64,000 nt of DNA from Clostridium ljungdahlii DSM 13528. GTDB taxonomy: Bacteria; Bacillota; Clostridia; Clostridiales; Clostridiaceae. The notes beneath the pieces are model-generated. The model ran no database searches, was not told the DNA's origin, and saw only the letters and a list, made by a program, of their open reading frames with translations. Positions within the stretch are counted from its first letter, which is position 1. Each line of letters opens with the position of its first letter. Positions 8,655 through 63,764 of this stretch are shown here, piece by piece. Location: positions 4,278,001 to 4,342,000 of the forward strand of contig NC_014328.1 of the NCBI RefSeq assembly GCF_000143685.1, read 5' to 3'. The translations under genes were made by a program, and so were the position numbers.

Positions 8655-9665
8655 TTAAAGATTTTTTACTGAACTAATTTCCTTTATAAGTGCTGGAACG
8701 ACTTCAAATAGGTCTCCTACTATACAATAATCTGCTACTTCAAATATTGGTGCAGTTTCATCTCTATTAATTGCAATAATTGTATCTGAAGAGCTCATTC
8801 CAGCTAAATGCTGTACAGCACCTGAAATTCCACATGCAATATATACTTTTGGAGAAACTGTTTTACCTGTCTGCCCTACCTGCTTTGTCTGTGGAATCCA
8901 TCCAGAATCTACAGCAGCTCTTGATGCTCCAATTGTTCCACCAAGTAAATCTGCAAGTTGTTGTAACATCTTAAAGTTTTCTCCATTTTTCATTCCTCTG
9001 CCGCCAGATACTATATACTCTGCCTCTTCAAGTTTGACTCCAGAATCTTCTTGGGCTTTAATAAAATCAACTACTTTTGTTAAAATAGAATCTTTGTCTA
9101 TATTAATAGTCTCTTTAATAATTTCTGGACGGTTATTTTCATTTTCTTGTGGTTTCTTAAAGGCACCAGGCCTTACAGTTCCCATCTGTGGTCTAGTATC
9201 ACTGCAAAGTATCTGTGCATAGAGATTGCCTCCAAAAGCAGGTCTTTCCCATACAACATTTCCAGTATCCTCTTCTACACTTAAAGCAGTACAGTCTGCA
9301 GTAAGACCTGTTCTTAAGCTAACTGCAATTTTAGAACCAAGTTCTCTGCCCCTTATAGTGGCACCTATTAAAATGGTATTTGGGTTATACTTGTGACAGA
9401 GTTTTAAAAATGCATCTCCATATACATCTGAAGAATAATTTTTATATTCTTCTCCCTGCACAACATAAACTTTATCTGCTCCATGACTGCCTGCACCCTT
9501 AACTGCATCTTCTACGTCACTGCCTATTACTACGGCACATAATTTCTGCTTTAGGCTATCTGCTAAAATTCTACCTTGTCCCAGCAGTTCAAAACCAACG
9601 TTCTTTGGTTGTCCCTGAAAGCATTCTATAAATACCCATACGTCTTTATATTCATCGAAATTCAT
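8655..9665 (-). CDS. etfA: Electron transfer flavoprotein alpha subunit
   Basis: FAD-binding subunit of the Etf heterodimer, 336 aa. N-terminal alpha/beta domain, then the C-terminal FAD domain with VSGGRGMKNGENF, the GASRAAVDSGWIPQTKQVGQTGKTV stretch (two adjacent motifs), and ISGAVQHLAGM. It passes electrons between NADH or ferredoxin and the acyl-CoA dehydrogenases of this operon. No N-terminal ferredoxin domain is present, unlike CarE of the caffeate pathway. Whether it bifurcates electrons cannot be decided here. ATG at 9665 follows GGGAGG by 8 nt; an upstream TTG at 9671 is less likely. Follows etfB by 15 nt. Confidence 0.95.
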   Translation of the reverse strand: MNFDEYKDVWVFIECFQGQPKNVGFELLGQGRILADSLKQKLCAVVIGSDVEDAVKGAGSHGADKVYVVQGEEYKNYSSDVYGDAFLKLCHKYNPNTILIGATIRGRELGSKIAVSLRTGLTADCTALSVEEDTGNVVWERPAFGGNLYAQILCSDTRPQMGTVRPGAFKKPQENENNRPEIIKETINIDKDSILTKVVDFIKAQEDSGVKLEEAEYIVSGGRGMKNGENFKMLQQLADLLGGTIGASRAAVDSGWIPQTKQVGQTGKTVSPKVYIACGISGAVQHLAGMSSSDTIIAINRDETAPIFEVADYCIVGDLFEVVPALIKEISSVKNL

Positions 9666-40935: not shown

Positions 40936-42126
40936 ATGAATAAAACTGATAATCCACTTAAAAAATTTATAACCTCAAAGTTATATAGCCGCTATAGTGG
41001 TATTTTATCCCTATCAGATGTACCTTTATTTTTGGTAGATACAAATGGGGATATTTTACTTGAATTTATTCCCTCCCCAGATTTTTGTACTCATGTATGT
41101 CAGGAAAGAGAGTCTCATGTATGTCCTGACTATCAATGTCGATTACAATCTGGCAAGGAAGGTAGATTTGTATGCCGATATGGTCTTGAAAATATGATTT
41201 TTCCGATCATAGTAGACAATAAAACTGTAGGTTATATGGCTGGTATACAAGTATATTTGAAAGATAACGAATACAAAAAGTATATGATTGATGTCCAATC
41301 TCACAAAGATACTAAGACTGAGGAGCTAGAGTTTATCGCTAAATCGATTTTCTCACTAAAATCCGTAGAATCAAATAAAATTAAAGTATACGAGCGATTA
41401 TGTTGCGAAATTGCTAAAAATATTTCTCTTGATTTATCAGAAAGCACTAAGCTGTCCCATCAGGATGTGAAAAGGTTGTCAATTGAAAAGGAAATACTGG
41501 AAAAGAAGATCATTGATCTAGAATCAAAAAATATGTCTCTAGTCGTTAATCCTCATTTTTTGTTTAACACTTTAAATTGTATTGCCCGTGTGGCTTATTT
41601 TGAACATTCTCACGAAACAGAAGAGCTTATTTATTGCCTTTCTGATTTGCTGCGGTATAATTTAAAGCAGGGTAACCAGCTTCACACCATTGGTGCTGAA
41701 ATTAACAATATTGAGAAGTATTTATATATTCAAAAAGTAAGATTTAAAACTCGTCTGGAATATGATATCAACATTTCGGAAGATCTTAAGTCTTATAGAA
41801 TTCTCAATATGATTATCCAACCTATTGTTGAAAACTCTGTAATTCATGGAATAACCCCAAGGCGAGATGGAGGCAAAATAAGTATCTATGCAGAAAAATA
41901 TAAAGATGAAATTGTTATTTCCATTATGGATAATGGAAATGGTTTCCCAAAGGATGTTTTGCTTGACATACAACAATGTAAAAATAAATCTGGCCTAGGT
42001 TTTCAAAGTACAGACAAACGTTTAAAACGATATTACGGAGAACAATATGGATTGAAAATTTTAAAATCTGATTACAGTGGAAGCACCGTTACCATCACAA
42101 TTCCTGCAGAACCTATTGTGAGGTGA
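40936..42126 (+). CDS. PocR-domain sensor histidine kinase
   Basis: Cytosolic sensor, 396 aa, no membrane helix. N-terminal PocR ligand-binding domain (about 12-165) with a cysteine cluster (C51, C55, C63, C68, C80). A coiled coil (175-200) follows, then a LytS/YehU-type kinase with phospho-acceptor His207 in VNPHFLFNTLN and an HATPase domain (MIIQPIVENSVIHG, DNGNGFP, SGLGFQSTDKRL). PocR domains sense small metabolites in propanediol, glycerol and methanol systems. Beside the cut locus a choline-related ligand is likely (inference). Confidence 0.88.
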   Translation: MNKTDNPLKKFITSKLYSRYSGILSLSDVPLFLVDTNGDILLEFIPSPDFCTHVCQERESHVCPDYQCRLQSGKEGRFVCRYGLENMIFPIIVDNKTVGYMAGIQVYLKDNEYKKYMIDVQSHKDTKTEELEFIAKSIFSLKSVESNKIKVYERLCCEIAKNISLDLSESTKLSHQDVKRLSIEKEILEKKIIDLESKNMSLVVNPHFLFNTLNCIARVAYFEHSHETEELIYCLSDLLRYNLKQGNQLHTIGAEINNIEKYLYIQKVRFKTRLEYDINISEDLKSYRILNMIIQPIVENSVIHGITPRRDGGKISIYAEKYKDEIVISIMDNGNGFPKDVLLDIQQCKNKSGLGFQSTDKRLKRYYGEQYGLKILKSDYSGSTVTITIPAEPIVR

Positions 42127-42131
42127 TAATA

Positions 42132-42902
42132 ATGAGTATAGTATTGATTGTAGAAGATGAAATACTTGAACAAGAATTTCTCAAATCAATTGTACTTGAA
42201 GAACTTTTTCCAGAAGATGTATTACTGACCTGTGAAAGTGGAGTTCAGGCTATTAAACTAGCCAAACAATACAAGCCAAATATTATCATGATGGATGTAA
42301 TGATTCCCGAATTGGACGGTCTTAGTACTATTGAAGAAATCAGAAAATTTCTCCCCAACGTGCTTATTACAATTTTATCTGCTCACTCGGACTTTTCCTA
42401 TGCACAGAAAGCAATTAGTCTCCGGGTTTTTGAATACCTATTAAAACCTGTAAAGCCTAACATTATCAAACAAGTTTTTCGGAAGATGTTAGACTCCGCA
42501 GCTGATTGTAATATAGTACTAGATAAGAGCTCTGAAGAAAAGAACCCCGAATCCAAAGAATCTCAGCAATACTTTATTGAAAAGTCTATAAAATATATTA
42601 AAGAGCATTTTAGGGAAAAAATAACTTTACAAATAGTTGCCTCTACAGTATTTTTGAATCCAAAATATTTTAGTCGTGTCTTTAAAAAGGAACTAGGTGT
42701 CTCATTTTCAAAGTATGTAATTAATCTGAGAATTCAATATGCCTGCAGATTATTAAAAACAACTAATTATCGTGCTTATCGAATTTCATCAGAATATGGC
42801 TTTTCAGATCCATCTTATTTTAACAGGGTATTTTGTGCGGAGATGAATATGACTCCTCAAGCCTATAGAAAACATGCGCTTATGTCAATGGAAGATGACT
42901 AA
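42132..42902 (+). CDS. AraC-type response regulator
   Basis: 256 aa: receiver domain (VEDE, Asp55 in IIMMDVMIPELDG, LLKPVKP) and two AraC helix-turn-helix motifs (about 150-250, ITLQIVASTVFLNPKYFSRVFKKELG and RISSEYGFSDPSYFNRVF). Partner of the PocR kinase; the ATG lies 6 nt beyond the kinase stop codon with GAGGTGAT as site. Probably activates the cut microcompartment genes. Confidence 0.92.
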   Translation: MSIVLIVEDEILEQEFLKSIVLEELFPEDVLLTCESGVQAIKLAKQYKPNIIMMDVMIPELDGLSTIEEIRKFLPNVLITILSAHSDFSYAQKAISLRVFEYLLKPVKPNIIKQVFRKMLDSAADCNIVLDKSSEEKNPESKESQQYFIEKSIKYIKEHFREKITLQIVASTVFLNPKYFSRVFKKELGVSFSKYVINLRIQYACRLLKTTNYRAYRISSEYGFSDPSYFNRVFCAEMNMTPQAYRKHALMSMEDD

Positions 42903-43185: not shown

Positions 43186-43482
43186 CTACTTTTCATCTTC
43201 CTTTAAATTAGTTTTAGGAAGGATAGTTTCAACTTCAACGTGTGGACGAGGAATAACATGAACAGAAACTAATTCTCCAACACGTTGTGCTGCTGCAGCA
43301 CCAGCATCAGTAGCTGCCTTTACAGCTCCTACATCTCCTCTTACCATTACTGTTACAAGACCGCCACCAACATGTTCTTTTCCTATTAGATAAACATTAG
43401 CTGCCTTTACCATTGCATCTGCAGCTTCAATTGAACCTACTAAACCTTTTGTTTCAATCATTCCTAATGCATCATATTTCAT
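43186..43482 (-). CDS. BMC-H shell protein, copy B
   Basis: Single-domain hexameric shell protein of 98 aa, PduA/EutM type. [20 protein letters not shown], the pore-lining [20 protein letters not shown] stretch, and [15 protein letters not shown] are visible. It differs from its neighbour at only three internal positions (residue 3 Tyr/Ser, 31 Tyr/Asn, Asn/Gly near the end) plus the extra C-terminal EK. Last gene of the operon. Confidence 0.96.
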
Positions 43483-43556: not shown

Positions 43557-43847
43557 TTAGTCTTCCTTTAAACCAGTTTTAGGAAGGATAGTTTCAACTT
43601 CAACGTGTGGACGAGGAATAACATGAACAGAAACTAATTCTCCAACACGTTGTGCTGCTGCAGCACCAGCATCAGTAGCTGCCTTTACTGCTCCTACATC
43701 TCCTCTTACCATTACTGTTACAAGACCGCCGCCAACATGTTCTTTACCTATTAAGTTAACGTTAGCTGCCTTAACCATTGCATCTGCAGCCTCTATAGAA
43801 CCTACTAACCCCTTTGTTTCAATCATTCCTAATGCATCAGATTTCAT
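43557..43847 (-). CDS. BMC-H shell protein, copy A
   Basis: PduA/EutM-type hexamer protein, 96 aa, nearly identical to the following copy. The C-terminal two-thirds of the two genes are almost the same at DNA level, while the first third differs at many silent sites, as expected from gene conversion. These two should be the major facet proteins, whose central pores pass choline and products. Confidence 0.96.
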
Positions 43848-44547: not shown

Positions 44548-46101
44548 TTAGTTAGCTCCCTTCATTGCAGCTACTAATTCACTTACGAGTCTAGCAAGTT
44601 TATCATTATCAGTAGTATCTGCAGCAGTGCTATCACAATTGCTCTTTGCTGCAAATTCTGCAGGGCTTGTAGCACAGAATCCTAAGTCATTTTTGCTTCC
44701 GCAAAGTTCAGGATGATTGAAAGTTGTATCGTCTGCAGCTAATGTAGTACAATCTTTAAGACCATATGCTACTCTCTTTATATTGATTAAATGTAATGGA
44801 GTAACATTTTCAGAAACAGAGCTTCCTCCCCATGTACCACAACCTAATGTAAATGCAGGTGCTAATCCTGTGCTTGCACCAGTACCTCCCTGGCTTCCAC
44901 CAGTATTAACTAAGATACGGGATGCTGGTTTTTTAGCAAACTTCATTACTAAGTCTCTATCATTTGTATGAATGTTCATTGTATGTCCAAGACCATTTTG
45001 AAGTAATCTTATACTAAGCTCACATGCTTCATGCCAATCTTTAACTGTATAGAAAGCAAGTACTGTTGTAAGTTTCTCATAAGATAGAGGGTAACCATTA
45101 CCAACTCCGCCTTGTTCTCCTATTAATACTTTTGTTCCTTCTGGAACTGTGAAACCTGCAGCTTCTGCTATAACCTGAGGAGCTCTTCCTACAAACTTAG
45201 CACTCATGCTGTGTGTACCAGGTTTAAAAAGTACGCTGCAAACTTTTGCAGTTTCTTCAGCTGTCATGAAATATCCGCCTTGTTTCTTAAATTCAGCTAC
45301 TATTTCATCATGGTTGCATTCTTCTGCAATTACAGACTGCTCGGATGCACAAATAGTACCATAGTCAAAACTCTTACTAGCTATTATATCTTTAACTGAT
45401 TGATGAACATCAGCAGTTCTTTCAATATAGGATGGAGAGTTACCAGCACCAACGCCTATTGCAGGTGTTCCTGAACTATATGCAGCCTTTACCATTCCAG
45501 GGCCTCCAGTTGCAATTATCATAGCAACTTCTTTAGCTTTCATAAGTTCATTTGTAGCTTGTATAGATGGTGTAACAATACCACCAATTACATTTGCAGG
45601 AGCTCCTGCTGCTACTGCTGCATCACGCATAAGTTCTATTGCTTTTGTTGAACATTTTAATGCAGCTGGGTGTGGTGAGAATACAATTGCATTTCTTGAT
45701 TTAATTGCAATGATTGATTTATAAATAACAGTAGATGTTGGATTTGTAGATGGTACAATACCCATTAATAAACCAACTGGTTCTGCAAATTCAATTACAC
45801 CTTCACTTTTATCTTCTTTTATAACACCAATAGTCTTCATATCCTTGATGTAATTATATACTGTAGTAGCAGCCATATGGTTCTTATAAGCCTTATCTTC
45901 AGCTTTTCCAAAACCAGTTTCTTCTGCAGCCATTTTACCAAGGCAAACTGCATTTTCTTCTGCTACCCTAACCATATTACATAGGATTTTATCAATTTGT
46001 TCTTCAGTATAATCAGCAATTTGGTCTGCTGCAATTTTTCCTAAACGTGCAAGATCTCTTGCTTCTTGTATAGAACGTAAGTCTTTATCAAAATTTTCCA
46101 A
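44548..46101 (-). CDS. cutF: CoA-acylating acetaldehyde dehydrogenase
   Basis: Oxidises acetaldehyde to acetyl-CoA with NAD. About 517 aa. Catalytic cysteine at residue 251 in SFDYGTICASEQSV; also VPSTNPTSTVIYKSIIAIKS and VNTGGSQGGTGASTGLAP. I place the start at TTG 46101, 7 nt after GGAGGG. That TTG aligns with the first residue of the paralogue at 55710, whereas the upstream ATG (46116) contains the binding site. The C-terminal 30 residues (DNDKLARLVSELVAAMKGAN) form an amphipathic helix that could target it to the shell lumen. Confidence 0.94.
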   Translation of the reverse strand: MENFDKDLRSIQEARDLARLGKIAADQIADYTEEQIDKILCNMVRVAEENAVCLGKMAAEETGFGKAEDKAYKNHMAATTVYNYIKDMKTIGVIKEDKSEGVIEFAEPVGLLMGIVPSTNPTSTVIYKSIIAIKSRNAIVFSPHPAALKCSTKAIELMRDAAVAAGAPANVIGGIVTPSIQATNELMKAKEVAMIIATGGPGMVKAAYSSGTPAIGVGAGNSPSYIERTADVHQSVKDIIASKSFDYGTICASEQSVIAEECNHDEIVAEFKKQGGYFMTAEETAKVCSVLFKPGTHSMSAKFVGRAPQVIAEAAGFTVPEGTKVLIGEQGGVGNGYPLSYEKLTTVLAFYTVKDWHEACELSIRLLQNGLGHTMNIHTNDRDLVMKFAKKPASRILVNTGGSQGGTGASTGLAPAFTLGCGTWGGSSVSENVTPLHLINIKRVAYGLKDCTTLAADDTTFNHPELCGSKNDLGFCATSPAEFAAKSNCDSTAADTTDNDKLARLVSELVAAMKGAN

Positions 46102-46152
46102 TTGTGTTCCCTCCATTGTTTATTATTTATATATTTTAATTTTTATAGCTGG

Positions 46153-51738: not shown

Positions 51739-51985
51739 TTTGGCCCCCCTTTACTTTTATTTTAAAAATAAACATTTTTTAGGGCTCCGCCGGCTAATCC
51801 GCTAGGAACACTAATCTTATAATAAGGCTCTGAAGCTTTTACTTGCCTCAACTGTCGGAAACATAAACTCTAATGTTCCGCCATCAAATCAATTTTATTT
51901 ACTACACCAATTACAGGTCATATAATAAATCTTTATAAAACCAGGGAAATTACACATTAACACATATTGACTAATTAACTACTTA
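51739..51985 (-). other. Structured GC-richer spacer upstream of the EutT-like gene
   Basis: 247 bases inside the operon. Bases 51785-51890 are much less AT-rich than their surroundings and can fold on the minus strand: an 8-pair arm (CGGAACAT with ATGTTTCCG, one bulge), an AGGC/GCCT arm and a GGATTAGCC-GGCGGAGCC segment. It does not match a riboswitch I know (the cobalamin B12 box is absent). Could be a leader RNA, a processing site or a repeat. Confidence 0.45.
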
Positions 51986-52936
51986 TTAATGCTTAATAAC
52001 CGAAACCGGGAAATCATATTCTTTAATCCAGCCTTCAATTCTATCCAAATCATCACTGCTTAAGCTTGGATCTCCCTCTATTGGATACTCTATTCCTAGC
52101 TGTGTATATTTATTTACGCCTAATTTATGATAAGGAAGTAAATCTATACCTTTAAAGTTTTTGTAATCACGGAAAGGCATCAAAAAGTTAATTACACCAT
52201 CAAACTCTTCTTTGCTATCATTCAGGCCTTTTAACAGGGGCATCCTAATCTTCACGTTATATCTGTGATTAAGAAGTTCCTTCAAGTTCTTCAAAATTTG
52301 TTCATTATGCACTCCTGTCAGTTGATAGTGTCGTTCAGGATCAATATGCTTTATATCAAAAAGGAACAAATCTGTGAACTCAGCAACCTTAAGTATTGCT
52401 TCTAATTTTGCATGACCACAAGTTTCAATGGCTGTATTGATTCCTTCCTGCTTACATACCATAAGCAAATTTGCTGCAAATTCCCACTGCATCAATACCT
52501 CGCCGCCACCTAGTGTGACACCACCACCTGAAATTTCATAAAACTGTCTGTCCTCTTCTATAATTTCCATAATTTCAGAAACAGTTTTTTCTTGTCCCAT
52601 AATGGATATTGCTGACTCGGTACAAGCATTCTCACACTTACGGCAACCTAAACAATCAATACTATGATCTACCTCATGTTCCATTCCTTTTGACATTGTA
52701 TGTATTCCAACCGGACAAACAGAGACACAAGCACCGCAATTAATGCATGAATTTTTTTTGAACATAACTTCATATTTTCGTAATTGTCCTTCAGGATTGG
52801 CACACCACTTGCAACGCAATGGGCATCCTTTAAAGAATACCAGTGTCCTTACTCCCGGTCCATCATACATATTGTATTTTTGCACATTAAAAATGACTGC
52901 TTTTCTTTCAATCATTGCTGCCTTCGCATTACTCAT
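51986..52936 (-). CDS. cutD: Choline TMA-lyase activating enzyme
   Basis: Radical SAM enzyme that installs the glycyl radical on CutC, 316 aa. The CX3CX2C cluster motif is in FKGCPLRCKWCANPEG. An inserted two-cluster ferredoxin-like domain (CINCGACVSVCPVG and CLGCRKCENACTES) and GGGVTLGGGEVLMQW follow. All are typical of glycyl-radical activases outside the PflA group. ATG at 52936 follows AGGAG; TTG at 52945 is too close to it. Sits 130 nt after cutC. Confidence 0.95.
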   Translation of the reverse strand: MSNAKAAMIERKAVIFNVQKYNMYDGPGVRTLVFFKGCPLRCKWCANPEGQLRKYEVMFKKNSCINCGACVSVCPVGIHTMSKGMEHEVDHSIDCLGCRKCENACTESAISIMGQEKTVSEIMEIIEEDRQFYEISGGGVTLGGGEVLMQWEFAANLLMVCKQEGINTAIETCGHAKLEAILKVAEFTDLFLFDIKHIDPERHYQLTGVHNEQILKNLKELLNHRYNVKIRMPLLKGLNDSKEEFDGVINFLMPFRDYKNFKGIDLLPYHKLGVNKYTQLGIEYPIEGDPSLSSDDLDRIEGWIKEYDFPVSVIKH

Positions 52937-53069
52937 ACTAACCAATCTCCTGTTTGATTCATTTTGGTGTTCAGATAAACTTTTAACCGAGCCTGTCCTC
53001 TTGCATACCTTGCAGTATGCAAGATACAGACATCAGATAAATTAATTTAAAATCAATGGAATGCTATGT

Positions 53070-55619
53070 TTAAAAATGTGTCAACATAGTTCTACTAATA
53101 ATTTCATCCTGAACATCCTTACACAATTCAACAAAGAATGCACTGTAACCTGCTACACGAACAATAAGATCTCTGTACTGTTCTGGATGCTTCTGTGCTT
53201 CAATCAAAGTCTTGTTATCCAAGTAATTGAACTGCATTTGTCCATTACCAAATAAGCAAGCAGTACGTAACAATGTGATAATACCTTCTTCTCCTTCTGG
53301 AGTTTCAAGCAATCCTGCCATAAGTTTAAAGTTATGAACCATACCTATGTTCATATTGTCACAAGACATCTTGGAAACAGATTTAATAATAGCAGTAGGT
53401 CCTTTAAAATCTGCACCCTGAGTTGGACTAATACCATCAGATAATGGTGTCCAAGCTTTACGTCCGTTAGCAGACGCACCTGTCAACTGACCAAATGGAG
53501 TATTATTTGAGATGGATAAAGTACCATGACTCAAAACAGAGTACAGAGTCTTATATTTACGATGTTCCATCTCTGTAAAGTTGATTAAATCTGCAGCAAT
53601 TAAATCTGCATAATCATCATCATTACCATACTTAGGAGCTTTTAAGCAATCATTTCTAAGTTCTTCATATCCAACAAAATCAGCTTTCAATGCTTGATTT
53701 AATTGCTCTAAAGTACATTTCTTGTCATCAAATACTACCTTCTTAATAGCAGCCATGGAATCTGCATATGTAGCCAATCCAGTCCATACAACACCAGGTC
53801 CGAAATTGTACATAGCACCACCGGCAGAAACATCTTTACCGTGTTCCATACAGCCTTCATACATGATGGACATCAAAGGTTTTGGAGCTAAATCTCTGTG
53901 AACACGCTGAGAAATAACTGTAGCAACGTCAGTCCATTTTGTAATATATTTGATTTCTTCCTTAACAGCAGCATCAAACTCTTCATAAGTCTTAAATCTA
54001 TTTAAATCTCCCATATCAGGACAAACTTGTTTTCCATACCATAAAGGAACACCATGGTTTAGAACTAATTCTATACATATAGGCCATTGAGTATAAGCTG
54101 TAGAAGTCCACTGATATAAACGTCCAGCTTTCTGAGGCTCAACACAACCCATTATACAATAATCTCTAGCATCTTCTATGGAAACACCTTTTGCAAGCAT
54201 CATCTTAATATGTGCATCATCAAAATGGCAAGCTGGGAATCCCATACCAGCACGAACAACATCAACAATCTTCTTCAAGTACTTCTTAGGTGATTTGTTG
54301 TGAATACGACAAGCTAAAGATGGCTGATAAATCTTAACGTGACGAACAGCATCCATCAAAAGATAAGTCAAGTCATTTGTTGCATCAAGACCGTCACGAG
54401 TAACACCACCAACACACATATTTACGAATGGTTGGTAACCTGCAAAGAACTTAGAAGCACCTTCGCTTGTAACCCACATCATTTCAGACATTTTGATTAA
54501 CATACAACCAGCTAATTCAAATGCTTCATAATTATTCATACGTCCTGATTCTATATCTGCCTTATAGAATGGATACATATATTGGTCAACACGGCCGATT
54601 GACATACCAGTTTGGTTTTCTTCAACTACGAGTAATGACTCAATAGTCCAAACTGATTGAATTGCTTCCCAGAAATTGCTAGGCTTATGTGCAGGAACAT
54701 GAGCATTAACTTCTGAAATCTTTTGTAATTCTGCCTTACGTTTAGGGTTTGTCTCCTTTGCAGCTAATTCAGCAGCATATTCAGACATACGTTTAGCGTA
54801 AATCATAACTCCTTCAGTAGTATCAATAACGGATTTATAGAAATAAATCTTTTCGATATCTTCAGGATTTTCATAATCTAATTTTGCTAAATGATCCTTT
54901 GCTTCCTGCTGAATATCTGCCATACCTTTTTTCATTAAGATAACATCATATCCAGGGTTTGAATCTCCACCACCATTAGTTGCATGGTAAGAGCAATCTG
55001 AAACAAATGATTCACCAGAAAGTTCCCAAACACCTGCTTCACGGTACTGGTCTTCACAGTATTCATCAACAGATTTTCCTTGCCAGAAAGGGAAAAGCTC
55101 TTCACGCATAACCTTTTTATCTTCTTCAGATACATAAAATGGATCTTGAGGACGTGTTCCAATTGTATCTATTTCATCTTGCATCCATCTCCATGCTATA
55201 TCAGGAGAAAAAGCTCCAGCACGAGGTGCACCACAAGGAGCTCCTACAATTAGCTCATCATCTTGAATTACTAAAGGTGCAGTTTCACAGCAATAACGGA
55301 AACATTTAGCACGTAATAAAATCTTAGGCATACCAGGATTTTCTTTAGCAATCTTTGTAATAGCCTTAGCACGATATGTTGTTATTGAAGGCTTTTGCTT
55401 TAAATAATTTTCCTTTATTCTCTTTAAACGTTCTGTCATTCCATTTGGAACTTCTCCATTGTTAGTGCAAGGTTCTGCACTAACTGCAGGTGCTCCATTA
55501 TCTTCTTTTGTAATCTCTTGGGAAACTCCTTGAAATATCTTCATTAAAGCTGCTTGTTCTTCTGCAGACATATTTTTAGTTGCCTCTGCAAACTTATTTG
55601 AAAATTCACGAATATCCAA
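53070..55619 (-). CDS. cutC: Choline trimethylamine-lyase
   Basis: Glycyl radical enzyme cleaving choline to trimethylamine and acetaldehyde, 849 aa. Radical residues are Cys492 and Glu494 (MGCVEPQK) and Gly824 (RVAGYSAFF). Choline-site residues known for CutC all fit with an offset of +3: Tyr211, Asp219 ([11 protein letters not shown]), Phe398, Thr505 and Tyr509 ([10 protein letters not shown]). The N-terminal 60 residues add an amphipathic helix ([17 protein letters not shown]) and a linker, consistent with shell targeting in type I cut loci. Start is TTG, 8 nt after GAGG. Confidence 0.97.
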
Positions 55620-55709: not shown

Positions 55710-57206
55710 CTATTTAATTTTTTCCATAGCTTTTTTTAAAATATGCTGTAACATTTGTATATCCTCTGGATTATAGTCTGACTTTTTTGTCATTCCATTC
55801 AAATCACTTTTTTCTTCTGTAAACAATCCATTAGTATTGACAATCTCTTCTACATTCCGTACGCCATATCCGACTTTGCGGACGTAAATAAGATTCATTG
55901 GTGAAACATTATCGGAGGTAATACCTTTACCTGCCGATCCACTACCTAAAGTTAAAGCAGGAAATAAATTACTTGTAGCACCCATACTACCAAAGGAAGC
56001 AGGCGTATTAACAAGTATCCTACCTACAGGTTTTTTTAATGCAAACTGGCGAATTACATCTTCGTCTTTTGAATGTATAACAAGAGTGTGACCATGTCTC
56101 TCACTTAACAGCAGTTCAATACACTTTTCACATGCATGCATCCAATCATCTTCAATGTAGTAAGCTAGTACCGGACAAAGTTTCTCCTTGGAATAAGGAT
56201 TATCTTGAGAAACATATTTCTGCTCTGAAATTAGCACTGTGCTACTTTCAGGAATGCTGAAACCTGCTTTTTTAGCCAATCTTTGTGCGGATTTGCCAAC
56301 CATTTCTGAATCCATACTGCCATCAGAACGGAAAAAGAGAGAACCTAGTTTTTGTGCTTCCTCCTCTGTCATGAAATATGCACCATTATTTTGCAACTCA
56401 CGTTTAACATCAGATGCAACACAGCTATCTACAACAATAGATTGTTCAGCTGATGGTACTATTCCGTTATCAAAGGTCTTACTAGCAATAATATCTTTTA
56501 CCGCCTGTTTGATGTCAGCTGTACGTTCAATAAATGCTGGTCCATTACCAGTTCCTCCATATATAACAGGTTTCCCAGAATTATATGCTGCTTTAAGCAT
56601 CCCGGGAACACCTGTATTCATAATCAAAGAAGTCGCAATATGGTTCATCAATTCGATTGTTCCACTAGGCGTCACAGTATGTAAGTATGCAAGAGCTCCT
56701 TCTGGAAGCCCATATCCTTCAGCTGCACGAATCATGATGTCAAGCGCCTTACAAATTGTCTCCTTTGCTCTAGGATGTGGAGAAAAGATAATTGCATTAC
56801 CAGACTTAATTGCAATCAATGCCTTATATATGGTAGTAGAAACCGGACTAGTTGCAGGACATAATGCAATAATTACACCCATAGGTACACCTACATCCAT
56901 GGTCTTATCCTGACCATTTTCATTAATAATACCTACACATCGCATTCCTCTAAGCTTAGCTGGCAAATACTCACAGGCAAATCGGTTTTTGATGCATTTA
57001 TCCTGCCATTTTCCATAACCAGTTTCATCCTGTGACATTACAGCAAGCTCTCGGGTATGTTTTCCGATTTCTTCCGCCATACGTTCAACAATCTCATCTA
57101 GCTTTTCTTGTGGAAAGGTTGCTAACATTTTTTGTGCTCGTGCAGCATTTTCCACAAGGATTCGGGATTCTTGGATGGAGAGCAAATCATTATCAATAAT
57201 ATTCAT
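55710..57206 (-). CDS. Aldehyde dehydrogenase homologue without catalytic cysteine
   Basis: 498 aa, co-linear with CutF over its whole length (DNDLLSIQESR, PATSPVSTTIYKALIAIKS, NTPASFGSMGATSNL). The catalytic cysteine is replaced: where CutF has TICASEQ, this protein has IVPSAEQ, with Pro251 at the nucleophile position. I checked the codon (CCA) in the DNA. The C-terminus adds an amphipathic helix (EDIQMLQHILKKAMEKIK). It should be unable to form the thioacyl intermediate. A scaffold, regulatory partner of CutF, or a different chemistry are options. Confidence 0.9.
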   Translation of the reverse strand: MNIIDNDLLSIQESRILVENAARAQKMLATFPQEKLDEIVERMAEEIGKHTRELAVMSQDETGYGKWQDKCIKNRFACEYLPAKLRGMRCVGIINENGQDKTMDVGVPMGVIIALCPATSPVSTTIYKALIAIKSGNAIIFSPHPRAKETICKALDIMIRAAEGYGLPEGALAYLHTVTPSGTIELMNHIATSLIMNTGVPGMLKAAYNSGKPVIYGGTGNGPAFIERTADIKQAVKDIIASKTFDNGIVPSAEQSIVVDSCVASDVKRELQNNGAYFMTEEEAQKLGSLFFRSDGSMDSEMVGKSAQRLAKKAGFSIPESSTVLISEQKYVSQDNPYSKEKLCPVLAYYIEDDWMHACEKCIELLLSERHGHTLVIHSKDEDVIRQFALKKPVGRILVNTPASFGSMGATSNLFPALTLGSGSAGKGITSDNVSPMNLIYVRKVGYGVRNVEEIVNTNGLFTEEKSDLNGMTKKSDYNPEDIQMLQHILKKAMEKIK

Positions 57207-57292
57207 TTCTAACTCTCCCTTTCATTTTTACTAACTAAGTACTCAATTTCTGTACTTTTCTATTTTATGTGGTAGATCATAACATCCACATA

Positions 57293-57595
57293 TTAAGGAA
57301 GTAAATTTTCAATTGTATAACGTTTGGTGATTTTCTGAAGATCTGGATGTGGACTTGCAATAACAACTGAACTATAAACTTCAGTTCCCATATCTTTTAC
57401 AGCTTTTACTCCAGCTTCTACAGCTGCTTTGCAAGCTCCTACATCCCCGGCAACCAATACAGAAATATAACCGGAAGCTACATTTTCATAGCCAATTAAT
57501 TCAACATCTGCAGCTTTACACATTGCATCTGCAGCCTCTAAAACAAAAACCAAACCAAATGTTTCTACTAAACCTAAAGCTACATATTTGCTCAT
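57293..57595 (-). CDS. BMC-H shell protein
   Basis: 100 aa hexamer-forming shell protein, diverged from the pair at the operon end. LGLVETFGLVFVLEAADAMC, pore region ASGYISVLVAGDVGACKAAV, and IASPHPDLQKI. The pore loop lacks the GGGLVT motif of the others, so its pore should select different molecules. Confidence 0.94.
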   Translation of the reverse strand: MSKYVALGLVETFGLVFVLEAADAMCKAADVELIGYENVASGYISVLVAGDVGACKAAVEAGVKAVKDMGTEVYSSVVIASPHPDLQKITKRYTIENLLP

Positions 57596-57634
57596 CTGTT
57601 TTCCCTTTCCTTTATCATATTTTTTACTATATTT

Positions 57635-57931
57635 TTATGCATCGATGTCATGTACTGAAACAATGTCCCCAACACCTTTAATTGGTCTTGGCATAACATT
57701 GTGTGCTGTCAATTTTCCTATTGCTGCAGCAGCAGCAGCTCCTGCTTCCACAGATGCTCTAACAGCAGCAACATCACCTTTTACCATAATTGTAACAAGA
57801 GTGGAACCTATATTTTCATATGATATAAGTTCAACGTCAGCAGCCTTCAGCATTTTGTCTGCTGCTTCAATTGCAGGAACCATCCCTAATGTTTCAATAA
57901 GGCCTAATGCCTCTTCGCCATAATACCTCAT
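57635..57931 (-). CDS. BMC-H shell protein, first shell gene of the operon
   Basis: 98 aa. ALGLIETLGMVPAIEAADKM, pore region GSTLVTIMVKGDVAAVRASV, HNVMPRPIKGVG. ATG at 57931 lies after a strong GAGGAGGAGGG; an earlier TTG precedes the site. The 140-base upstream gap contains AGTTCAA words in direct repeat, similar to words in the permease promoters, so a promoter may lie here. Confidence 0.94.
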   Translation of the reverse strand: MRYYGEEALGLIETLGMVPAIEAADKMLKAADVELISYENIGSTLVTIMVKGDVAAVRASVEAGAAAAAAIGKLTAHNVMPRPIKGVGDIVSVHDIDA

Positions 57932-58070
57932 TTCATTACCCTCCTCCTCTATACGCAATTACGCAGTATGGATCTTTTTCAATTAAATGCAATTTTGATT
58001 CAATTACCTTTGCTTGAAAATGTTTATTTATTATTTGAACTAATAATTTGAACTTATGGAATCCAAGTTA

Positions 58071-58337
58071 TTAGTCTTTAATATATTTATTAATTGTAGC
58101 TGCTCCTTCTTCATTTGCGTGATAATAAACTCTCAAATTACCTGATTTATCCTCATCAAATCTTGTTTCTTCAAGGAGACCATTAGCTTCAGCTGTCATT
58201 AAAGCTTCAATTACAGCATCTTTATTAAGTGCTCTAAAATTACCATAGTCACCTTTTAAAGCTTCAATAACGTCTTCTGCACAAGCTTCTTTAACTGTTG
58301 TAAAGTGTTTTAAAATAGCATAATTAAGTGGTTTCAT
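58071..58337 (-). CDS. Winged-helix-like small protein, copy 2
   Basis: 88 aa, unknown family. The order of elements (LNYAILKHFT, EDVIEALKGDYG, DAVIEALMTAEANGLLEET, a beta hairpin SGNLRVYYHANEEG, and a last helix INKYI) is that of a winged helix. No cysteine cluster. About 80% identical to the copy at 59614 and always paired with a permease, 4 nt downstream of it. Could be a local regulator or a permease-associated subunit. Confidence 0.7.
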   Translation of the reverse strand: MKPLNYAILKHFTTVKEACAEDVIEALKGDYGNFRALNKDAVIEALMTAEANGLLEETRFDEDKSGNLRVYYHANEEGAATINKYIKD

Positions 58338-58341
58338 ACAA

Positions 58342-59430
58342 TTAATCCTCCTTTTTTCTGAATAAATCCAGTGGATTCATGGAAATTACTAAAATACCTA
58401 ATACCATGAGTACTGCAGCAATCCAACCAATAGCAGGTATTGACCAACCTGATTTGCCAAAGATTACACCAAGTACTATCCAGCAACAGAATGGACCCCA
58501 GAATGAATAAGTACCATTACAAGCCATACCAAGAGCTGCACCACACATACTATTACCCTTATACCAACTCATATATGAAACAAATGCACAAAGACCACTC
58601 ATGGAAAACCAAATCATAGCAGATCCACTTGTAAATGCCTGAAATACAAGACCAGTTGAAAGCTTAACACTACCTGCAAGCATACCCATAATAGGTATTA
58701 ATATAATTAAGTTTGAAATACCTGATGTTGCCTGACGAATAGTAATACCAATCTCAGAGTCAATCATAGATGTACCAAAACCAGCTACACAGCCTTCAAA
58801 ACCCCAACCAAGAGCTGCTATGAAAGCAATAGCAATACCTAAAAGAGCACCTTTAGGAGCACTTCCTGTAATGCTTGTACTACCAATCATAAAACTAGCA
58901 GCAACACAAATAACTATACCTAACATCATACGTTTATTTAATTCTTGTTTGAATAATATTCTACCTAATATAGCACCAATAGCCGGACAAAGAGCTGTAA
59001 TAGGAATAACTATTGAACCAGCCATTTGAAGACCGATAACATAAGCTGTACTGGAAATTGGTCCTCCTATAAGGGCTGCCAAAATCATTACACGGCCTGG
59101 GGTGGTATTAATACATCTCAAGAAATCTCCAAACTTACCTTTAATACCTGCATAAAGCATTGCCCATATAGCACTACAAGAATCATTTACTGCACTACCA
59201 AGGGCACCCAATACGTATGTAATAACAAAAGCGGATAATCCTGCTTTATTAGCTCCATACCAGTCACCCCAAACTCCCTTAGTCATACCTAATGACAAAA
59301 ATGCTGAATAAAATCCATACATAATACCTGAAAATATAGCAATTGATATACCTTTTTTAAAAAATTGTGATGATAACTTTTTTTTAGCAGCAATTGCAGA
59401 TGCACTAACCGCTCCTGTCATTTCACTCAT
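58342..59430 (-). CDS. DMT/EamA-type permease, copy 2 (candidate choline uptake)
   Basis: About 362 aa with ten predicted helices. FSGIMYGFYSAFLSLGM and two EamA-like halves (ALCPAIGAILGRILFKQELNKRM and the C-terminal YKGNSMCGAALGMACNGTYSFWGPF, in parts) are visible. DMT proteins such as LicB import choline in pathogens. With cutC and a LicA-type kinase nearby, a choline transporter is a reasonable inference. Highly similar to the copy at 59882. ATG at 59430 follows GAGGAGG. Confidence 0.78.
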   Translation of the reverse strand: MSEMTGAVSASAIAAKKKLSSQFFKKGISIAIFSGIMYGFYSAFLSLGMTKGVWGDWYGANKAGLSAFVITYVLGALGSAVNDSCSAIWAMLYAGIKGKFGDFLRCINTTPGRVMILAALIGGPISSTAYVIGLQMAGSIVIPITALCPAIGAILGRILFKQELNKRMMLGIVICVAASFMIGSTSITGSAPKGALLGIAIAFIAALGWGFEGCVAGFGTSMIDSEIGITIRQATSGISNLIILIPIMGMLAGSVKLSTGLVFQAFTSGSAMIWFSMSGLCAFVSYMSWYKGNSMCGAALGMACNGTYSFWGPFCCWIVLGVIFGKSGWSIPAIGWIAAVLMVLGILVISMNPLDLFRKKED

Positions 59431-59436
59431 AAACAA

Positions 59437-59613
59437 AATTCCTCCTCATATTAAAAAACTAGATTGATGAAAACGTTTTTTGCAATCTAATGATATATTA
59501 ACTCATTAGAGCATTTTTTCATGGTACAAAATGCCATATTTTAATGCATAATATCTGCTAGTTTTTTGGAGTTCTTGTACTATAGTTATTTTCTTGCACT
59601 AATAGTATTGACT
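59437..59613 (-). promoter_or_regulatory. Promoter block of permease copy 2
   Basis: Sequence from about 59509 to 59612 aligns over its whole length with 61091-61195, upstream of the first permease. Shared blocks on the minus strand are CAATACTATTA, a TACAA repeat about 21 bases apart (TGCAA then GTACAA), GATATT and CCATGAAAA. An inverted repeat (AGATTG...CAATCT, 59461-59488) lies nearer the start codon. Confidence 0.55.
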
Positions 59614-59877
59614 TTAATCAATGTATTTATTAATTGTAGCTGCTCCCTCTTCATTTGCATGATAGTAAACAACTAAATCACCTGACTTGTCCAATATAGA
59701 TCTTGTTTCTTCAAGAAGTCCATTAGCTTCAGCTGTCATTAATGCTTCAATTACAGCACCTTTTTTAAGTCCTTTAAAATCGCCGTAGTCACCTTTTAAA
59801 GCTTCAATAACATCATCTGCACAGGCTTCTTTAGTTTTTGTAAAATGTTTTAAAATAGCATAATTTAGTGGTTTCAT
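59614..59877 (-). CDS. Winged-helix-like small protein, copy 1
   Basis: 87 aa, the same fold pattern as its paralogue (AILKHFTKTKEACADDVIEALKG, in parts; AVIEALMTAEANGLLEET; SGDLVVYYHANEEGAATINKY). ATG lies after AGGAGG, 4 nt downstream of the permease stop. Differences cluster in two places: residues 33-41, a possible recognition-helix edge, and 60-68, the wing. The two copies may therefore bind different partners. Confidence 0.7.
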   Translation of the reverse strand: MKPLNYAILKHFTKTKEACADDVIEALKGDYGDFKGLKKGAVIEALMTAEANGLLEETRSILDKSGDLVVYYHANEEGAATINKYID

Positions 59878-59881
59878 ACAA

Positions 59882-60964
59882 TTAATCCTCCTGTTTTCTA
59901 AATAAATCTATTGGATTTACAGCAATTACGAAAATACCAACTGCCATTAATATAGCAGAGAACCATACTATAGGAGCCATTGACCAACCTGATATTCCGA
60001 AAATTACGCCAAGTATAATCCAGCAGAAGAATGGTCCGAAAAATGAATATGTTCCATTAGTTGCCATACCAAGAGCTGTACCAGTCATACTATTACCTTT
60101 GTACCAAGTCATAAATGACAGATAAGCGCAAAGGCCACTTATAGCAAGCCAAATCATAGCAGGACCACTTGTAAATGCTTTAGCAGTAAGATGAAATGCA
60201 AGACCTGCATTATTACCTACAATTACAGATATAATAGGAATAAATATAATTAAATTTGAAAGACCTGATGTTGTCTGACGAATAGCAATACCAATTTCTG
60301 AATCTACCATACATGAACCATAACCAGCTATACAACCTTCTAGTCCCCATCCAAGTGCAGCAATAAGAGCGATAACCATACCTAATCCTGCTCCTGCAGG
60401 TGCATTTCCAGTAACACTTTGAAGACCAATCAAACCACTTGCACAAACACAGATAAGAATACCTACAATCATATGCTTGTTTAATTCTTGTTTATATAAA
60501 ACTCTACCTAATATAGCACCAATAGCTGGGCAAAGAGCAGAAATTGGAACAGCAAGTGAACCTGCCATCTTTAGAGCTACAACATAAGCTGTAGTAGCAA
60601 CTGGTCCTCCCATAAGAGCAGCTACCATAATCAATCGTCCTGGTTTACTATTGAGACATCTAAAGAAATCACCCAATTTACCTCTACCAGCTGCAGCAAT
60701 TAATGCCCAAACTGCACTAGCAGTATCATTTATTCCACTACTAAGTGCACCAAGTACATATGCAATAGTAAGTGCTGTTAAACCTGCTGTATTTGCACCA
60801 TACCAGTCACTCCAAACTCCCTTTGTTGTAGCTAATGTCAAAAATGCTGAATATAGTCCATATGAAATTCCTGAAAATAAACCAATTGCAATACCTTTTT
60901 TAAAGAAACTTGATTTTACCTTTTTTTTAGCAGCCGCCAAAGCTGCATCCATTGACAATTCCAT
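59882..60964 (-). CDS. DMT/EamA-type permease, copy 1 (candidate choline uptake)
   Basis: 360 aa with ten helices. Same landmarks as copy 2: GLFSGISYGLYSAFLTLATTKG, ALCPAIGAILGRVLYKQELNKHM and WYKGNSMTGTALGMATNGTYSFFGPFF, in parts. First gene of the whole minus-strand cut region. ATG follows GGAGG. Keeping two close copies suggests different affinity, partners or dose; substrate remains inferred. Confidence 0.78.
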   Translation of the reverse strand: MELSMDAALAAAKKKVKSSFFKKGIAIGLFSGISYGLYSAFLTLATTKGVWSDWYGANTAGLTALTIAYVLGALSSGINDTASAVWALIAAAGRGKLGDFFRCLNSKPGRLIMVAALMGGPVATTAYVVALKMAGSLAVPISALCPAIGAILGRVLYKQELNKHMIVGILICVCASGLIGLQSVTGNAPAGAGLGMVIALIAALGWGLEGCIAGYGSCMVDSEIGIAIRQTTSGLSNLIIFIPIISVIVGNNAGLAFHLTAKAFTSGPAMIWLAISGLCAYLSFMTWYKGNSMTGTALGMATNGTYSFFGPFFCWIILGVIFGISGWSMAPIVWFSAILMAVGIFVIAVNPIDLFRKQED

Positions 60965-61409
60965 AAATAAACCTCCAATTATTTTATTATATTGTTATTT
61001 GATGAGAGGCCTCATCTTAATGCGAATTTCAGATTAAGACGCTTTTGTAATATTAATATATTAATACATTACTTATTGTAAACGAATAGAAGATCTTTTC
61101 ATGGCATAAAGCGACATATGTTATTTGGACAATATCCGCTTATTTTTTTATTTTTTTGTACTATCGTTACCTTATTGTATTAATAGTATTAATTTTTTTC
61201 AATAAAATATTAAAGGAATTATCTTACTTTGTGAATAATTTAGAATAAAGAGGTGCATTTTGCGATAAGACAGAAGATTATGCCTACCACTTCTAGAATT
61301 GTTAAAAATTATACAAAATGTTATGTAATCTGCTTGCAGTACATATCTAGACGCGCAGCAGTGCTTATACCCCACTTTCATAGTCGCTTTCACTATGTCC
61401 ATGGGAGTG
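60965..61409 (-). promoter_or_regulatory. Upstream region of the cut locus
   Basis: 445 bases without a gene. 61091-61195 is the block duplicated before permease copy 2. Nearer the start codon lie an inverted repeat (CTTAAT...ATTAAG, about 61013-61040) and a GAGGCCTC palindrome (61006-61013). The distal part (61354-61436) is the dispersed repeat that runs into the MocR gene. Confidence 0.5.
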
Positions 61410-61436
61410 TTAGCAATAGCAGCTATCAGATAAACT
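61380..61436 (-). repeat. Second copy of the dispersed repeat
   Basis: On the minus strand this reads TTATC.GAT..CT.CT..TGCT.A.ACTCCCA.G.AC...GTGAAAGCGACTAT, matching about four of five bases of 15606-15660. It overlaps the final codons of the MocR gene and supplies its stop. Confidence 0.55.
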
Positions 61437-62870
61437 TCTGATTATTTGCGAAAGCTTTTTGAGTCCTAGCTCCAAGTCATAAAGAGAAGCATAGGAATAG
61501 GATATCCTTATATTATAATTTTTAGTAAAATCGTATATATATCCTGGATTTATTAATATTCCATTTTTACAACATTTATAAAAAAGTTTTTTCATGTCTA
61601 TTTTATTTTTAAGCTTTAACCATATATAAAATCCTCCTTTTGGCACATTCCAACTAGCCATGTTAAAAAAATATTTTTCAAGAACATTTAATGCAATTTC
61701 TCTCCTTATTTTAAGTTTCTCTCTCAGTTCTTTTAAATATATTTCATAAAATCCACTTTCTATCCATTCCGCAGTTACATACTGTGAAATGGAACTTGCA
61801 CCATAATCCGTTTGCATTTTAACATCTCCAAGTCGCTCAACAACAGTTTCCGGCGCAACAACCCACCCTATTCTTATTCCTGCTGCCATTGATTTCGATG
61901 TAGTACCCATATAAAGTACTATTCCATTTTCATCTTTTGCTTTTATTGGATAAGGTGGTATTTCATCCAACCATAATTCCCTATAAGCATCATCTTCAAT
62001 AATTGGAATTCTCTCTTTATTACATAAATCCAATAGCTTGTTTCTTCTATACTGCGGCATTAATATACCTGTAGGATTATGGAATGTTGGAATAGTATAT
62101 AGAAGAGATGTATTTCTATCTATATTTTTTAAAATTTCATTTAACTTAATTCCATCTGCATCCATAGATATTCCACTAAAACTAACTCCGGAAAAGTCAA
62201 ATACATGAAGTGATTTTATATATGATGGTTTTTCCACAAGTATCTTGGAACCAGGCTTTAGTATGCTCATTGAAATCAACTGAAGAGCTTGAAGTGAACC
62301 TGAAACAATTAGTATTGAATCCGGTGACACATTTATATGAAACTTTTTTAAATACTTACTTATAACCTTTCTCAATTTAAGTGAACCCTTAGCCATTTCA
62401 TAGCTTAAAGAAGTTATATTATTGGACACAGTTTTAAATACCTTCTTCATCATATCTTTTGGAAATAATTCAGGAGAAAGTTCACCTGTACCAAGCCTTA
62501 TTATATTATCCTTATACTCCATCTTATTTATAATTTGGATTGTATGGAGGTTAGGTTTGTGTATTCCACTTTTTATATAAGGTTCCCAACTACCTGGCAG
62601 CATAGAAGCCATCAAGGACCAAGTATTATTTATAATTCTGGTACCTTTTTTACTTTTTCCCTCAATTAAACCATCAGCTTTTAACTCGTCTAAGGCTTCT
62701 ACAATAGTGCTTCTATTTACTTCAAATTTTTCTGCCAATTCTCTCTGTGATGGTAACTTTTCTCCTACAGTCCACTCTCCATTTCCTATTTTCTCCTTTA
62801 TATAATTTACAATTTGCCTGTACATAGAAATACAAGATTTTTTATCCGGTTTCCAATCAATGTTTAACAT
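61410..62870 (-). CDS. MocR-type GntR/aminotransferase regulator
   Basis: 486 aa. N-terminal GntR winged helix (about 12-78, GEKLPSQRELAEKFEVNRST) is joined to a fold-type I aminotransferase domain (about 110-480). The PLP lysine lies in YMGTTSKSMAAGIRIGW; ALQLISMSILKPGSKILVEKPSY, FHNPTGILMP and IEDDAYRELW are also present. Such regulators sense PLP and an amino compound. Lies 16 nt after a LysE exporter gene, so it probably controls amino acid export. The last seven residues (SDSCYC region) are encoded by a dispersed repeat. Confidence 0.92.
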   Translation of the reverse strand: MLNIDWKPDKKSCISMYRQIVNYIKEKIGNGEWTVGEKLPSQRELAEKFEVNRSTIVEALDELKADGLIEGKSKKGTRIINNTWSLMASMLPGSWEPYIKSGIHKPNLHTIQIINKMEYKDNIIRLGTGELSPELFPKDMMKKVFKTVSNNITSLSYEMAKGSLKLRKVISKYLKKFHINVSPDSILIVSGSLQALQLISMSILKPGSKILVEKPSYIKSLHVFDFSGVSFSGISMDADGIKLNEILKNIDRNTSLLYTIPTFHNPTGILMPQYRRNKLLDLCNKERIPIIEDDAYRELWLDEIPPYPIKAKDENGIVLYMGTTSKSMAAGIRIGWVVAPETVVERLGDVKMQTDYGASSISQYVTAEWIESGFYEIYLKELREKLKIRREIALNVLEKYFFNMASWNVPKGGFYIWLKLKNKIDMKKLFYKCCKNGILINPGYIYDFTKNYNIRISYSYASLYDLELGLKKLSQIIRSLSDSCYC

Positions 62871-62886
62871 ACATATTCAAATCCTT

Positions 62887-63501
62887 TTATTTTGATAATA
62901 TAAAATTAAAACCAAGTCTTACCCCGTAATAAATTATTATTATACCACATATTCTATTAATTACCTTAATTGATTTTTCATTAAAACTGTGCTTAAAAAT
63001 TGACATAATAGCTGCAAGAGAAGTAAACCAAAAAATTGATGCCATGCATGATCCCAGTATAAAGTACCAGGAGCTTTGATAAGAAAGAGATGCCCTAAAT
63101 CCTCCAAGGAGAAGTGAACCATCAATAATAGCCTGTGGATTCATCCAGGTCACAACAAAGCAAGATATAATTACTTTAACTAAGTTTTTTTCTATATTAG
63201 TTTTTTCATCAATATCTGGTTTACTTCTTATAAGGCTTATTCCAATGTATATAACAACTATGCATCCAACCAATAGCACAACCGATCTCAAAACCTTTGA
63301 TTTTTGGATTATGGTTCCTACACCCCAAAAGCAGGTTAGTGCAAGGGAAATATCAAAAAATATAGTTATAAAAGCTGTCCTAAATGCCTCTGCTCTTTTA
63401 CTAGCAGTTATAGCTGAATTAATTACATATAAGTTCTGCATACCAATTGGAGCCACATAAGAAATTCCAAGTAAAAATCCTTGTAAAAAATATCTAATCA
63501 T
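62887..63501 (-). CDS. LysE/ArgO-family amino acid exporter
   Basis: 204 aa, six predicted helices. Typical start GFLLGISYVAPIGMQNLYVINSAI and the VTWMNPQAIIDGSLLLGGF motif of LysE. Exports basic or other amino acids. ATG follows AGAGGTGG. Forms an operon with the MocR regulator. Confidence 0.9.
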   Translation of the reverse strand: MIRYFLQGFLLGISYVAPIGMQNLYVINSAITASKRAEAFRTAFITIFFDISLALTCFWGVGTIIQKSKVLRSVVLLVGCIVVIYIGISLIRSKPDIDEKTNIEKNLVKVIISCFVVTWMNPQAIIDGSLLLGGFRASLSYQSSWYFILGSCMASIFWFTSLAAIMSIFKHSFNEKSIKVINRICGIIIIYYGVRLGFNFILSK

Positions 63502-63764
63502 TTTTCCACCTCTAAAAATTCATATTATAGAATTTCCAAGTAAAAAACAAAAACCCTATAAAATCAATTATATTTATTAAAATGCCAATGTCTTCAACCA
63601 AAATCTAAAATTTATACCAACCAAAAGATTTTATTTTCTTTGTATTGACAAATCAATACCCATATATTAATATTTAAGTCGGAAACCATATGTACCATAT
63701 AAGTTTCCATAGTGTAAATCTTGATGAAAGGAAGCTATATTTTTATAACTTTTGTGGTGTAATT

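Follow-up and report, generated by a model that had tools for sequence, protein, structure and literature searches.

A small winged-helix protein paired with LicB-like permeases at the choline microcompartment locus of Clostridium ljungdahlii: a candidate FeoC-like transporter partner

Two neighbouring units in the choline microcompartment locus of Clostridium ljungdahlii DSM 13528 each encode a LicB-like permease of the DMT superfamily, followed by a small winged-helix protein, here termed SP. Our main reading, held at a probability of about one half, is that each unit would comprise a choline importer and a cytoplasmic partner dedicated to it, in the manner of FeoC, and that SP probably controls or protects this importer rather than reading DNA. 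The computed part of the explanation comprises the pairing of the two genes, the predicted fold of SP, the gene context, and two classes of promoter regulator. All coordinates refer to the window, the whole stretch of 64,000 nucleotides that was analysed (contig NC_014328.1, positions 4,278,001 to 4,342,000).

Two permease units beside the cut genes

The module lies on the minus strand in the order MocR-like regulator (61410..62870), upstream block P1 (61074..61194), permease 1 (59882..60964, 360 aa), SP1 (59614..59877, 87 aa), upstream block P2 (59494..59614), permease 2 (58342..59430, 362 aa counted from its ATG, or 364 aa from an alternative TTG at 59436 in the ORF list), and SP2 (58071..58337, 88 aa), after which the shell genes begin. 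Permease 1 was recognised from its ORF and sequence similarity, and the blocks by repeat search and alignment; P1 carries the conserved boxes ATAGTACAA, GGATATTRTSCA and TTTATGCCATGAA, and P2 the shared element. In both units 4 nt separate the permease stop from the SP start. Most junctions at other loci show, by our own ORF ends, a gap of 4 nt (35 cases), an overlap of 14 nt (33) or a gap of 1 nt (24), distances typical of translational coupling. The MocR-like regulator is present in only two of the loci L003–L082 (L003 and L004), and a search for known RNA elements in Rfam gave no match up to E 1 across 57200–63600.

Downstream of SP2, on the same strand, follow two genes for BMC-H shell proteins, one immediately 3′ of the module (57635..57931, with its ATG at 57931 by our reading) and a second at 57293..57595, an aldehyde dehydrogenase that we read as a copy without the catalytic Cys (55710..57206), the choline trimethylamine-lyase CutC (53070..55619), its radical SAM activase CutD (51986..52945), and the remainder of the locus. 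CutC scores 1688.7 bits against the TIGR04394 equivalog (cut-off 1050), and with the BMC domains of the shell proteins this places the window's locus in the GRM1 class; its gene order is that of the C. ljungdahlii GRM1 choline microcompartment locus in the accessible portions of two publications (PMC12016505; PMC4207490). The first of these describes choline-induced genes and microcompartment-like bodies in the accessible text; its table there omits the permeases and SPs, and the available text of neither treats the two as a unit. The same holds for the open-licence literature, as judged by the titles listed.

As the earlier note had proposed, the module occurs twice in the same order, with permeases of 360 and 362 aa, partners of 87 and 88 aa, the same 4-nt gap, and the upstream block. 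The unit measures about 1.55 kb, since the repeats are spaced by 1540–1581 nt. A repeat finder returned two direct-repeat stretches of at least 300 nt (87% and 77% identity), and split the upstream block into segments of 78 nt (74%) and 50 nt (70%); aligned directly, P1 and P2 score 100, and 300 shuffles reach at most 63. The picture of a recent tandem duplication did not survive closer comparison. The two permeases are only 64–65% identical, depending on how gaps are counted, while permease 2 is 81–84% identical to permeases from a number of further species and genera, and its identity to that of C. ragsdalei is 96%. A maximum-likelihood tree was built from 38 permease rows, 32 of them distinct, selected from 116 pairs. 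It places permease 1 in a ten-row clade with 100/100 support that excludes permease 2, whose wider neighbours lack firm resolution. On these sequences the two units appear to be old paralogues.

The small proteins have diverged less. SP1 and SP2 are 84–85% identical, again depending on gap counting, and SP1 is closer to SP2 (85%) than to the SPs of permease 1 clade mates outside the C. ljungdahlii group (72–77%). Identity at four-fold sites, which are few, is 79% for SP against 66% for the permease. Either conversion or strong constraint may account for this, and we make no choice between them because the SP tree is too weakly resolved.

Pairing, LicB likeness and choline context

A survey of gene neighbourhoods supported the pairing that had been suggested and found it to be near-constant. 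The permease lies directly upstream of SP in 79 of 80 loci, and the remaining locus starts at a contig edge; these are the best 80 of 88, fetched by SP similarity, a choice blind to SP-free permeases. Because loci fetched in this way cannot reveal a permease that lacks SP, 194 family genomes were searched once with the permease and, separately, with an SP profile. Every SP match (69/69, counted at E up to 1e-10 with weaker rows left out) lies behind a permease, with 10–68 nt between the aligned ends. Conversely, SP follows 63 of the 68 close permeases (those with E under 1e-100), and all 48 family genomes with a close permease have an SP. Each genome with one of the five SP-free close permeases carries another copy with SP, and in one (G075) the SP-less permease is followed by a fragment of SP that contains three stops. 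Distant forms of both proteins occur together in six further family genomes, while none of 14 still weaker LicB-like permeases fetched from the family genomes has SP beside it.

Beyond the family, a survey of 398 genomes of the phylum found SP in 22, including the window's own, with 24 matches down to 21% identity to SP2; a permease accompanies 23 of them. The latter count includes G263, where a TAA interrupts the permease frame and SP stays open. Among 297 genomes of the phylum of Desulfoluna (locus L060), all four SP matches, one of them from the L060 genome itself, are paired, although in G784 the permease match is split over two frames. In the exception, G336, a kinase-like gene, an intact SP and MttB stand in a row, and no permease was found in the assembly, which is 94% complete. 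This SP is the sole member of the 44-member set A3 with the tyrosine of PadR recognition helices, and its helix-3 charge (+3) equals the highest in that set, so it may have another role. No SP–permease fusion was seen, the open frames of SP matches at E up to 1e-10 being 87–129 aa long. The SP of G336 that lacks a permease, the open SP beside the broken permease of G263, the five close permeases without SP (all from genomes that have a further permease copy) and the absence of a fusion all tell against a partner model.

The suggested link of the permease to LicB and choline holds in sequence, fold and gene neighbourhood. LicB, the choline importer of Streptococcus pneumoniae (PDB 7b0k, 7paf), is among the closest known systems, and belongs to the same DMT superfamily; in structure comparison by VIA-align, a triose-phosphate translocator (5y78) ties with it at Z 24.5. 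LicB has 292 aa against 360 aa for the window permease, whose residues 1–25 fall outside the match, and no small protein partnering LicB is known to us. Net charge of the permease N-terminus does not separate SP-linked from unlinked permeases (medians 4.0 and 2.0 vs 2.5), a further observation against a partner model.

Genes for CutC, MttB-type proteins, choline kinase or kinase-like proteins accompany 89 of 100 loci, with 11 lacking any of them (tblastn, E up to 1e-8). The permease–SP pair is likewise found at choline-demethylation and lic-like loci, and at L142 and L150 it stands alongside MttB-type and kinase genes. These resemble the mth choline-demethylation locus of Eubacterium limosum, for which the accessible text of PMC12155760 reports an EamA transporter between mthB and mthA/mthC, with LicB among its top matches and a trace detected in choline-grown cells only; that text mentions no SP gene. 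Taken together, these neighbourhoods suggest choline as the permease substrate.

A PadR-like fold and two promoter types

AlphaFold2 models SP2 as a winged helix with a mean pLDDT of 96.5, comprising helices at 4–11, 20–31 and 39–51, strands at 56–62 and 68–73, and a final helix at 76–85, and the closest solved structures are mostly PadR-type. The earlier note had named two findings that would count against it, a predicted structure without a winged helix and homologues usually found away from such permeases; neither emerged, because the predicted fold is a winged helix and the pairing is near-constant.

SP shares the winged helix-turn-helix fold of PadR regulators (PF03551; PadR 5x11, LmrR), and differs from them in several respects. 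SP2 and SP1 score 24.1 and 18.8 bits against PF03551, both below the gathering score of 27. The recognition-helix tyrosine is present, by eye, in 13 of 13 above-cut-off PadR domains of the window's genome and in 0 of 44 SP orthologues (set A1), G336 providing the one exception in set A3. SP is acidic, with a median charge of −5, a value equalled by one of the 13 PadRs. In the PadR family an additional helix serves dimerisation, whereas SP stops at residue 88, its model has no helix past residue 85 for dimers of this style, and it is tied to a permease gene. Conservation is highest in helix 1, which may partly be just buried core, and lowest in the wing. From these features SP is unlikely to read DNA.

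Certain observations run against a partner model here as well: the structural matches listed for SP are mostly DNA-binding regulators, a Pfam search matches 27 of the 44 members of set A3 to PadR within E 1, the strongest at 3.7e-9, one PadR is as acidic as the SP median, and helix 1 may be conserved as core. FeoC is not among the structural matches listed, which tells nothing either way. Database proteins matching SP number 1,144; the 120 listed are 88 or 89 aa long, and are mostly named hypothetical protein, DNA-binding protein, helix-turn-helix or PadR-family regulator. In C. autoethanogenum, the accessible text of PMC8748961 reports the PadR-related proteins CLAU_1786 and CLAU_1788 as raised in an agr mutant.

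Two promoter types recur among 90 upstream regions, many of which have neither. The first is a MerR-type promoter, with a TTGACCTTCCCC dyad, a 19–20-nt spacer and TATAAT; its detector flags 34 of the 90 regions, some spuriously. The second is the P1/P2 block, with three boxes at nearly fixed spacing across 11 aligned sequences, and one box found by pattern in 14 of the 90. These types go with different regulators. Among 30 loci chosen by promoter type, with kinase matches at 33–39% identity left out, the block-type loci have the kinase in 11/14 (E up to 1e-180) and MerR in 0/14 (E up to 1e-40), and the MerR-type loci have MerR in 16/16 and a close kinase in 0/16; the block type was assigned to L009, L011 and L034 from a single box, and to L006 and L057 solely from the alignment. 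Across 48 family genomes, 32 have a MerR relative, eight the locus kinase, none both and eight neither, and SP is present in all; the genomes are related, therefore such counts are not independent events. The MerR relatives sit about 460–820 bp upstream of the permease on the same strand, and closely resemble NF053782, a MerR activator (E up to 1e-98), none of them reaching its family cut-off. In the window's genome MerR is matched only weakly (E 2.7e-26), at a site outside the window.

Within the window, the kinase class is represented by a histidine kinase (40936..42126, plus strand), whose close relatives accompany the block elsewhere, and an AraC-type response regulator (42123..42902, plus strand) predicted to act on P1 and P2. 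By our own reading the kinase's sensor would be PocR-type, and PocR domains are noted at some GRM1 loci in the accessible text of PMC4207490. The block thus seems better matched by a PocR-type two-component system than by SP. A copy of the block before an alcohol dehydrogenase gene (39391, plus strand) was considered and set aside as weak (p 0.06 and 0.15, 300 shuffles). A conserved leader in 19 mostly MerR-type loci was also rejected as an RNA element, having no consensus RNA fold.

Pcholine2, described in the accessible text of PMC12016505 as 406 bp upstream of CLJU_RS19635 with three-fold induction, falls at 57932–58337 when counted back from the ATG at 57931, taken as the CLJU_RS19635 start; by this arithmetic it would start at the SP2 start codon and contain the whole SP2 gene. 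The block shows some similarity to Pcholine2 (p 0.04 and 0.007), and none by alignment to Pcholine1. According to the accessible text of PMC12016505, sigma-54 promoters are predicted for the C. ljungdahlii GRM1 locus. A scan for −24/−12 sites found none in 57932–58337, in the 300 nt before either window permease, or in 51739–52054; it required GG and GC and at least 8 of 11 positions, a strict consensus, so this is no disproof.

A partner protein weighed against other roles

One alternative casts SP as a conventional small regulator of PadR type, repressing or activating, which senses choline or a product and controls its own unit, and perhaps the cut operon, by binding the DNA upstream. This is unlikely, if the most serious alternative. 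The two other regulator systems already fit both promoter types, and it is mainly because these exchange while SP remains with the permease that SP is removed from an operon-regulator role. The acidic protein without a recognition tyrosine, with its variable wing and no dimer helix, also argues against it. An SP operator upstream of the permease was rejected, palindromes not being enriched where expected (9/88 near the permease start, vs 11 and 13 in neighbouring zones), and a 25-nt element sought in P1 and P2 is absent from both. The suggestion of a substrate- or redox-dependent regulator is weakened where DNA binding is meant. Its redox form finds no footing in C19, the sole cysteine in both window SPs, a position occupied by C in 34 of the 44 orthologues, by S in nine and by N in one.

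Two further explanations appear improbable, the second slightly more so. SP could serve the choline pathway itself, binding an enzyme or kinase or acting on the message, and adjoin the permease only through shared choline operons. The SP of G336, with its kinase-like and MttB neighbours and no permease, would fit, as would the tandem pairs in which one SP is left for two permeases: two full units are present in 9/80 loci, and two permeases with one SP detected in three more. However, that SP is atypical in its tyrosine and charge, and neighbours vary among cut, demethylation and lic-like loci while the permease is the constant one. Alternatively, the permease paralogues could divide labour between choline import and trimethylamine export, or act in exchange, with SP setting direction or specificity. 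CutC chemistry yields trimethylamine, which must exit the cell, and permease pairs recur, side by side in 12/80 loci and 22–25 kb apart on one contig in four genomes (G098, G138, G144 and G148). Against this, no substrate evidence distinguishes the paralogues, cut loci with one permease are common, and lic-like loci, which are not expected to yield trimethylamine, have permeases closest to permease 2 (82–84%).

The preferred reading remains an importer with a dedicated partner, and FeoC offers the nearest precedent. FeoC is a winged helix encoded together with FeoB, and carries several conserved cysteines for a [4Fe-4S] cluster. Its likeness to the role proposed for SP is that of a small cytoplasmic protein serving a transporter; SP differs in having a DMT permease, from another transporter family, as its constant neighbour, and one non-invariant cysteine. 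The accessible text of PMC10710835 describes FeoC as bearing an iron-sulfur cluster and shielding FeoB from FtsH, its loss lowering FeoB. In the proposed mechanism, choline would activate the PocR-type kinase and the AraC-type response regulator, P1 and P2 would then fire, with choline-responsive transcription running via the block and not via SP, and permease and SP would be translated from one message. SP, derived from a PadR-type DNA-binding domain and now a putative protein partner, would dock at the permease's cytoplasmic face, with the extended N-terminus as a possible site, and there gate, assemble or stabilise the permease, much as FeoC serves FeoB.

More tentatively, a PadR-type domain may have been exapted as an obligate soluble regulatory subunit across this branch of LicB-like importers, in at least two phyla, controlling choline entry post-translationally ahead of trimethylamine formation, demethylation or phosphocholine decoration. 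It would be the first winged-helix partner in the DMT superfamily, for which we know of no other. If true, a DNA-binding fold can turn into a transporter subunit, and the label 'PadR family regulator' on SP genes is not to be read literally. With the block assigned to the PocR-type kinase and the MerR dyad to the MerR gene, choline sensing by GRM1 loci becomes directly approachable. TMAO originates from bacterial trimethylamine production, which imported choline supplies; should the importer require SP, or be throttled by it, SP would be a second handle on trimethylamine flux beside CutC.

Upstream regions of the permease genes

The published choline promoters are described as putative sigma-54 promoters in PMC12016505. 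A scan with the strict consensus found no -24/-12 site in 51739-52054 or in 57932-58337, the latter being the Pcholine2 fragment by our arithmetic. Upstream of the LicB-like permeases, a 25-nt AT-rich element (consensus CATTATAAATTTTTATTTAATAATA) was found in 20 of 88 regions, at -71 to -84 relative to the permease (for instance, -84 in locus L015 and -81 in L047), and in both regulator classes, the PocR-type kinase and MerR. The element was looked for and not found in P1 and P2, the blocks upstream of the window's two permeases, and comparison of 19 permease leaders yielded no consensus RNA fold.

Gene copies within the locus and in other genomes

The aldehyde dehydrogenase adjoining CutC (55710-57206, minus strand) reads GIVPSAEQ at the catalytic-cysteine site, whereas the other copy (44548-46116) reads TICASEQ, so that the former seems, from its sequence, to have lost the catalytic cysteine. 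This agrees with GRM1 choline microcompartment loci, whose second copy is reported as inactive in PMC4207490. Near-identical BMC-H shell protein genes lie in tandem at 43186-43482 and 43557-43847.

Permease 2 is interrupted in two other sequences: in the sister strain ERI-2 the frame breaks near its start, within an A run (L003, near 8917-8990), and in G139 the same gene contains a TAA (G139:C2:130863-131906). These interruptions may be sequencing slips; despite them, the match to SP2, the small winged-helix protein encoded 4 nt behind permease 2, is full length in both.

Association with choline demethylation genes

In genome G336, whose assembly yielded no permease, an SP-like gene (G336:C103, L146, 758-1138) has a kinase-like gene on one side and MttB on the other. 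The product of this SP-like gene has a helix-3 charge of +3 and, among the 44 aligned members, is the only bearer of the PadR recognition-helix tyrosine. Four further loci (L142, L144, L149 and L150) hold permease and SP together with ethanolamine ammonia-lyase, MttB-type methyltransferases and genes for kinases or kinase-like proteins, a gene content which suggests a route from choline to ethanolamine via demethylation.
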